Assembly (NCBI RefSeq): GCF_000144645.1
Contig: NC_014377.1
Coordinates: 2,170,001 to 2,234,000, forward strand
DNA from: Thermosediminibacter oceani DSM 16646
GTDB lineage: Bacteria > Bacillota > Thermosediminibacteria > Thermosediminibacterales > Thermosediminibacteraceae
Length of the DNA: 64,000 nucleotides
Reading direction: 5' to 3'
Shown here piece by piece: positions 5,801 to 46,335 of the stretch (positions are counted from its first letter, which is position 1; each line of letters begins with the position of its first letter). The notes beneath the pieces were generated by a model. The model ran no database searches. It was not told the origin of the DNA and saw nothing but the letters and a program-made list of their open reading frames with translations. The position numbers and the translations under genes were made by a program.

Positions 5801-5992
5801 TCAAGCCACCGATTCGCTTCTTTTATAAATAACCTTTCCTTCTTTCGAAATTTCTTCAATGAAAAATAAGCTTTCTTTTATTTCATCAAATTCTTTCGGA
5901 GTATATACAATAATATCAGCTCCAATACTTGGCTTTGCAACTTCAGCAACTTCCTCAAGCCTTTCGTAAAAACATTCGTGCCCTTCCTCCGC
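5801..5992 (-). pseudogene. Nucleotidyltransferase-domain protein, C-terminal remnant
   Basis: An open frame without a start reads EEGHECFYERLEEVAEVAK, then GADIIVYTPKEFDEIKE, and ends EGKVIYKRSESVA at TGA 5803-5801. The VYTPKEF and EGKVIY pieces match the C-terminal half of minimal nucleotidyltransferases of the MNT/MazG-neighbour type (known from the family). The catalytic GS-x10-DxD half is missing; upstream the sequence runs straight into a group II intron fragment. Boundary near 5992 is approximate. Confidence 0.6.
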
Positions 5993-6249
5993 CCCGCGCC
6001 TGCCCCATATACTCTACCGCCCCTCGGCAGCCTAGGATTTCGCTGTGTTATGCCAGCTCATCCGAGCGGTCCAGCCTCTTATGGGGTTCTTGTTCATCAG
6101 GCCGTGGCTTTGCCGCCGGCTTCCTTCGGCACCCACCTACGGTGGGTCCCCGACCTCGCGATGGACACCCTTGCCTTTGGCTAGCGGAGTAGTGTTGCCT
6201 CGCCTACAGTGGACTTTCACCACCGAGTTTACGCTCATACCGGGCGCAC
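5993..6249 (-). mobile_element. Group II intron, 5' (domain I) fragment
   Basis: Read on the minus strand from 6249, the sequence starts GTGCGCCCGG and contains GGTGAAAGTCC, GCTAGCCAAAGGCAAGGGTG, CATCGCGAGGTCGGGGACC and GGCAAAGCCACGGCCTGA, blocks I recognise from the 5' domain I of bacterial group II introns. The first intron base directly follows the T-run of the S-layer terminator (6251-6287), the insertion preference known for class C introns. Only about 260 nt remain; no reverse transcriptase or domains V/VI are present. It is transcribed, if at all, as the tail of read-through from the S-layer gene. Confidence 0.75.
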
Positions 6250-23816: not shown

Positions 23817-23933
23817 CTCTTATCAAGAGCAGGTGGAGGGACTGGCCCGATGAAACCCGGCAACCGGCAGCCTAATTTTTCCGGCTGCAGCGGTGCTAAT
23901 TCCAGCAGAACGTTAAGTTCTGGCAGATAAGAG
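23817..23933 (+). promoter_or_regulatory. SAM-I (S-box) riboswitch aptamer
   Basis: CTCTTATC (23817-23824) pairs with GATAAGAG (23926-23933) as P1. Inside are the S-box core AGAGCAGGTGGAGGGA, TGGCCCGATGAAACCCGGCA, the P3 hairpin CAGCCTAATTTTTCCGGCTG and the P4 hairpin TTAAGTTCTGGCAG region. With SAM bound the downstream terminator should form and shut off methionine uptake. Confidence 0.96.
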
Positions 23934-45916: not shown

Positions 45917-46092
45917 AGCTCATTCCCTCCAGTAAATTCAAGTTTTGATTTAATAACGCCCCCGCAAAAGCTTAATGCGGGCTTTCTATATAGATTGTAG
46001 CATTTTTTTGAAAATAATACAAATAATACGTTGCGGTTTACGGTGTTACTGTTTTAAGTTATCACATAGCCGATCTTTGTCATCGGGCATAT

Positions 46093-46120
46093 AAAAACCC
46101 GACTGGAAATCATGTCGGGT
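46093..46120 (-). terminator. Second terminator behind the c-di-GMP aptamer
   Basis: ACCCGAC and GTCGGGT with a 10-nt loop, minus-strand tail TTTTTATAT. Confidence 0.85.
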
Positions 46121-46151
46121 CGGCCCATATATTGAATTTCCCTCGAAAGAC

Positions 46152-46180
46152 AAAAAATCCCCGAGCTGCCGAAGGGGGAT
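46152..46180 (-). terminator. First terminator behind the c-di-GMP aptamer
   Basis: ATCCCC(C) and GGGGAT around CTTCGGCAGCTC, followed by TTTTTTG on the minus strand. It begins about 16 nt after the aptamer, the position of a riboswitch-controlled terminator. Confidence 0.85.
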
Positions 46181-46196
46181 GTGGATTTGCTTTAAA

Positions 46197-46285
46197 AGCA
46201 CCATCGGCAGCCCGGCTACCATAGCATTAAAAGCTTTATATCCGCAGCTTGGCACTCCAGCTTTTCGGCTGGTTTGCACTTTGGT
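46197..46285 (-). promoter_or_regulatory. c-di-GMP-I (GEMM) riboswitch aptamer
   Basis: Minus-strand GTGCAAACCAGCC-GAAA-AGCTGG, then AGTGCCAAGCTGCGG, ATATAAAGC and TATGGTAGCCGGGCTGCCGA. These are the conserved GEMM blocks: GCAAACC, GNRA tetraloop hairpin, the A/G-rich joining strand before AAGC, and the GGUAGCCGGG-UGCCG second hairpin with its tetraloop receptor. A promoter precedes it and terminators follow. Whether it prefers c-di-GMP or cGAMP cannot be told by eye. Confidence 0.88.
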
Positions 46286-46306
46286 ATACTTGTTCATTTC
46301 AGGTTA

Positions 46307-46335
46307 ATTATCCCATATATTTTATATTTTGTCAA
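46307..46335 (-). promoter_or_regulatory. Promoter of the riboswitch transcript
   Basis: TTGACA (46335-46330), 17-nt spacer, GATAAT (46312-46307), ending about 20 nt before the aptamer. Confidence 0.88.

Follow-up and report, generated by a model that had tools for sequence, protein, structure and literature searches.

On the minus strand of the window, a 64 kb stretch of the Thermosediminibacter oceani genome (searched as a single contig of 2,280,035 bases), lie a promoter, a c-di-GMP-I (GEMM-I) aptamer and two successive terminators with no adjoining gene, a set of parts that a first-pass annotation made from the sequence alone had placed correctly throughout (Table 1). The promoter carries 11/12 consensus letters, and the covariance-model search proposed there recovers the aptamer above the gathering score of 35 (E 3.4e-7 in the 64 kb window, E 2.9e-9 genome-wide), with RF01051 as its best-scoring family, at a score below the best RF01051 copies of the same genome; the same model found nothing above cut-off in 14 control genomes. 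The next gene, encoding a flavin reductase-like protein, starts 177 nt past T2, close to the announced distance of about 170 nt. Absent from that annotation were an altered ligand pocket, a promoter between T2 and the flavin reductase (P2, which is not among the promoters listed by the consensus scan) and a PfpI gene seen in relatives. An 83-codon open frame (46297-46046) was considered as a leader peptide and discarded, as the corresponding frame of the sister species is broken by indels and stops after 19 codons, and no Shine-Dalgarno sequence is present. Elsewhere, the window contains a SAM riboswitch (23817-23933, +; RF00162, 89.8 bits) and a group II intron match (5980-6146, -; RF02001, 118.9 bits).

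Table 1. Features of the riboswitch locus, in window coordinates.
Feature	Position	Strand	Evidence
Promoter P1	46307..46335	-	TTGACA (46335-46330), 17 nt, GATAAT (46312-46307), extended -10 TG
c-di-GMP-I (GEMM-I) aptamer	46203..46288	-	RF01051, 51.7 bits; comparison with family aptamers
Terminator T1	46152..46217	-	Long hairpin and U run, MFE -29.3 kcal/mol; covariance model R1
Terminator T2	46093..46121	-	Hairpin and U run, -13.4 kcal/mol
Promoter P2	45994..46022	-	TTGTAT-17-TACAAT, extended -10 TG; interspecies conservation
DJ-1/PfpI gene position in relatives	45917..45993	-	Alignment with T. litoriperuensis, ORF table there, no PfpI match in T. oceani
Flavin reductase-like protein, 170 aa	45404..45916	-	PF01613, 56.8 bits

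In the Rfam alignment, the position of Vc2 G20 (model position 11) is occupied by U (46278) and that of A47 (model position 38) by C (46251), while the C92 equivalent is retained (C at 46207) and the GAAA loop is present with a C-A closing pair; the three contacts correspond to positions 11/38/81 of Bc1 (G11, A38, C81) (PMC11218506). The base at the G20 position is thus not the A of the cGAMP-type (G20A) GEMM variants. Alignment of 32 RF01051 hits from nine family genomes shows that G20 and A47 are kept in all other family aptamers above 60 bits (26/26, with GGCAAA and GCAAAG), GUGCAAA and UGCCAAG being found in the window copy alone. The U20/C47 pocket was recovered only from T. oceani, both by a strict pattern in 398 genomes of the phylum and by a looser one in 26 genomes of the class, and was not found in viral contigs. 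The same G-to-U change lowers c-di-GMP binding and removes regulation in Vc1, where altering the A47 equivalent abolishes binding, and mutation of G20 cost 30,000-fold in Vc2 (PMC4744006). U20 by itself is not proof of loss, because the G20 equivalent of Cd1 can be changed to A or C without large effect (PMC9262584). Judged by its two altered contacts, the T. oceani aptamer has probably lost c-di-GMP binding. Signalling by c-di-GMP itself seems still to be kept, since the genome still encodes two GGDEF proteins and has canonical-pocket aptamer copies elsewhere.

In T. litoriperuensis, the syntenic region (L033) consists of a molybdopterin oxidoreductase, a MazG-like ORF (L033:1441-1890, present neither in T. 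oceani nor in G003), P1, the aptamer, T1, T2, P2, a DJ-1/PfpI gene and the flavin reductase (88% identical to that of T. oceani), so that pfpI separates the RNA from the flavin reductase. PfpI is 87-100% identical across six family genomes and lies behind the same T1 hairpin in other members of the family, and the T. oceani genome has no match to it at E <= 1e-20. Homology between the two species ends after P2 and resumes at the Shine-Dalgarno region of the flavin reductase, P2 facing pfpI in T. litoriperuensis and the flavin reductase in T. oceani. T2 is also present in T. litoriperuensis (-14.9 kcal/mol), and the remaining family genomes have no such terminator between T1 and pfpI. Three options had been offered for the missing target, of which its deletion is the best supported. 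That the flavin protein would be a new kind of target agrees poorly with its place as second gene after pfpI in relatives (T. litoriperuensis and G003) and with its own conserved promoter downstream of T2 in T. oceani. The T. litoriperuensis aptamer (63.4 bits) has the canonical G20/A47/C92 pocket, and is damaged too, its GAAA loop being one base short although pfpI is kept; decay may therefore predate the loss of pfpI.

T1 is more widely distributed than the aptamer with which it overlaps. The 3' end of the aptamer serves as the 5' strand of T1 (CCGGGCUGCCGA), which also has an inner hairpin, a U run and, on its 3' side, a conserved bulge (AAAUCCACAUCC). A covariance model built from T1 (R1) identifies one locus per genome in 8/9 genomes of the family, upstream of pfpI or the flavin reductase, although six of these 8 sequences served to build it, leaving G006 and, weakly, G008 as independent finds; a weak additional antisense echo occurs in G004, and no match was obtained in the 13 other genomes of the order. 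Covariation is weak, with six sequences, one pair changed on both sides and 36/500 shuffles reaching the score, and the structure of T1 thus rests on stability and sequence conservation. G003 displays P1, a leader where no more than the 3' half of the aptamer can be recognised, T1 and pfpI, while the four genomes of genus g4 (G004, G005, G007 and G008) have P1, no aptamer, T1 and pfpI; RF01051 gave no match in the leaders of these five genomes (cmscan E <= 5). In G006, pfpI is deleted down to its last codons, T1 is present with its U run removed as well (L163:1501-2130), and the flavin reductase carries an in-frame TAA, a second, independent loss of pfpI. G002 has pfpI in a different setting and without T1. 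None of the genomes searched has pfpI directly behind an intact aptamer, and the ancestral target is for this reason reconstructed from remnants. An Rfam scan of the pfpI loci in the order's other family revealed no aptamer belonging to pfpI, the sole c-di-GMP-I hit (L102) lying on the opposite strand, downstream of the gene.

Rates of change differ among the parts of the element. With respect to fourfold-degenerate sites of five neighbouring genes, which are 362/475 identical (76%) between T. oceani and T. litoriperuensis, the aptamer upstream of T1 shows the same identity (55/71, 77%; p 0.88), as opposed to 338/362 for four other orthologous aptamers (88-100% each; Fisher p 1.4e-4), the loop and 3' arm of T1 (46191-46152) are more conserved (37/40, 93%; p 0.017), and so is P2 (34/36 positions; binomial p 0.004), p values that are descriptive, sites being taken as independent in one species pair and segments picked after alignment. 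The -35 box of P1 is identical in T. litoriperuensis and its -10 box reads CATAAT there, the whole segment being 79% identical, about the neutral level. Overall, the aptamer, P1 and the T1-T2 spacer show identity at or below neutral.

These results suggest with good probability that the element is a decaying, orphaned relic of a c-di-GMP-I riboswitch whose former target was a pfpI-flavin reductase operon, a view for which the parts, pocket changes, synteny, absence of pfpI and rates of change can all be read from the DNA. The ancestral switch was probably of the ON type, ligand binding preventing termination at T1; aptamer and T1 are mutually exclusive because the 5' arm of the latter is the 3' strand of the former, and the terminator fold is favoured over enforced aptamer helices by 13-18 kcal/mol without ligand (secondary structure alone), the present T. 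oceani RNA being predicted to terminate by default. An OFF arrangement through a competing short T1 stem (AUCCCC/GGGGAU) was considered and set aside, as this stem is confined to T. oceani, with no conservation among its relatives. The switch would have become uncoupled from pfpI in the Thermosediminibacter lineage, where an additional terminator and promoter came to stand between the two; pfpI would then have been lost in T. oceani, leaving P2 facing the flavin reductase, and an aptamer no longer needed may have gathered changes, including those of the pocket from G20 to U and from A47 to C. P1 now most likely yields a short RNA that ends at T1 or T2 and no longer reports c-di-GMP. Against a relic speaks an aptamer score that is still well above the Rfam cut-off.

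Other explanations were weighed against the same data. The flavin reductase might still be controlled by read-through, T1 and T2 acting jointly as in Bc1 of Bacillus thuringiensis, whose tandem terminators lie 28 bp apart (PMC11218506); it is the first gene to follow on the strand, and T1 still adjoins it in G006, also without pfpI. We regard a working switch of this sort as quite improbable in view of the conserved P2 after T2 and the changed pocket bases, the second place of the flavin reductase after pfpI in relatives and the in-frame TAA that it carries in G006. The possession of its own promoter and two terminators, in the same layout in both Thermosediminibacter species, together with the conservation of the 3' part of T1 above fourfold sites, could also indicate a free-standing short RNA kept for a function of its own, either in trans or as a ligand sponge. 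Such an RNA is distinctly unlikely when the aptamer, P1 and the T1-T2 spacer evolve as they do and T1 directly precedes pfpI in other genera, so that cis control of the pfpI operon accounts for its conservation; a sponge would in addition require a working pocket, and the c-di-GMP sponge put forward in the first-pass annotation is rendered doubtful by the U20 and C47 changes, mutations of a kind that weaken or abolish binding in Vc1 and Vc2 (PMC4744006).

A very improbable alternative is that U20/C47/C92 forms a new pocket for another cyclic dinucleotide or nucleotide: two of the three contact positions are altered in a fold that still scores 51.7 bits, and a single pocket change can switch ligand in the GEMM family, G20A giving cGAMP binding (PMC7288161), but the combination is confined to T. 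oceani in both pattern searches, outside the pocket the aptamer has diverged at the neutral rate and the switch is without a coupled gene. That an unrelated sequence resembles RF01051 by chance, in favour of which the score below the genome's best copies might be invoked, can be practically dismissed given the genome-wide E value, the promoter upstream and a hairpin that overlaps the 3' strand, as published for the pilM switch, and is refuted by synteny with a canonical aptamer in the sister species. Finally, T1 may be an attenuator of the pfpI-flavin reductase operon in its own right, a former GEMM expression platform whose aptamer was lost in several lineages and which now answers another signal (a protein, temperature, or a small RNA bound at the invariant 3' bulge). 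We consider this possible, if rather unlikely; were it true, the window copy would be the version remaining after the loss of pfpI.

Read as a decaying relic of a pfpI switch, the element belongs to a known riboswitch family, as a degenerate and orphaned member, and does not represent a novel type of control. The bacterial family documents successive stages of riboswitch loss at a single locus, from a full aptamer with an intact pocket, through an altered pocket without target and a half aptamer, to a terminator only, and illustrates that a good Rfam hit need not mean a working switch. Its most interesting residue is T1 persisting without an aptamer, which raises the question of why a terminator hairpin stays conserved once the sensor is gone. 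The remnants also suggest that c-di-GMP formerly regulated a DJ-1/PfpI-flavin reductase operon, a kind of target other than motility, pili and surface genes.

Two further c-di-GMP-I copies of T. oceani may be mentioned. One (L007:1501-1586; 1072310-1072395, +) precedes a flagellar rod gene (flgB-like, PF00460) and scores 33 bits, as opposed to 86.7 bits for the switch before the same gene in T. litoriperuensis (L132), and is a second decaying switch; flagella have been described in T. oceani, with no motility reported, only tumbling (PMC3035372). The other, a weak copy (L006:1501-1589; 1606665-1606753, -; 39.6 bits) resembling L001, is 88/89 identical in both Thermosediminibacter species and is followed by a transposase-like (IS21-type) ORF.

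Compared with known systems, the window copy shares with RF01051 (GEMM-I) the full-length model match, the P2/P3 fold, the GAAA loop, the C92 equivalent, a 5' position after a promoter and a terminator that uses the aptamer 3' strand, and differs from it in the bases at G20 and A47, the C-A loop-closing pair and the lack of a gene coupled to its expression platform, T1, T2 and then P2 preceding the first gene. The sister family c-di-GMP-I-GGC (RF03167), of the same Rfam clan, is the best family for some other copies in these genomes. With the pilM cGAMP riboswitch of Geobacter metallireducens the window copy has in common an ON logic in which terminator and aptamer are mutually exclusive (PMC9262584), but pilM responds to cGAMP and its target is live, whereas the window copy has U at the selectivity position and no coupled target. 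As in Bc1 of Bacillus thuringiensis, two intrinsic terminators follow the aptamer a few tens of bases apart (PMC11218506); in contrast, Bc1 retains G11/A38/C81 and its gene mcpE, while T. oceani has a second promoter past T2.
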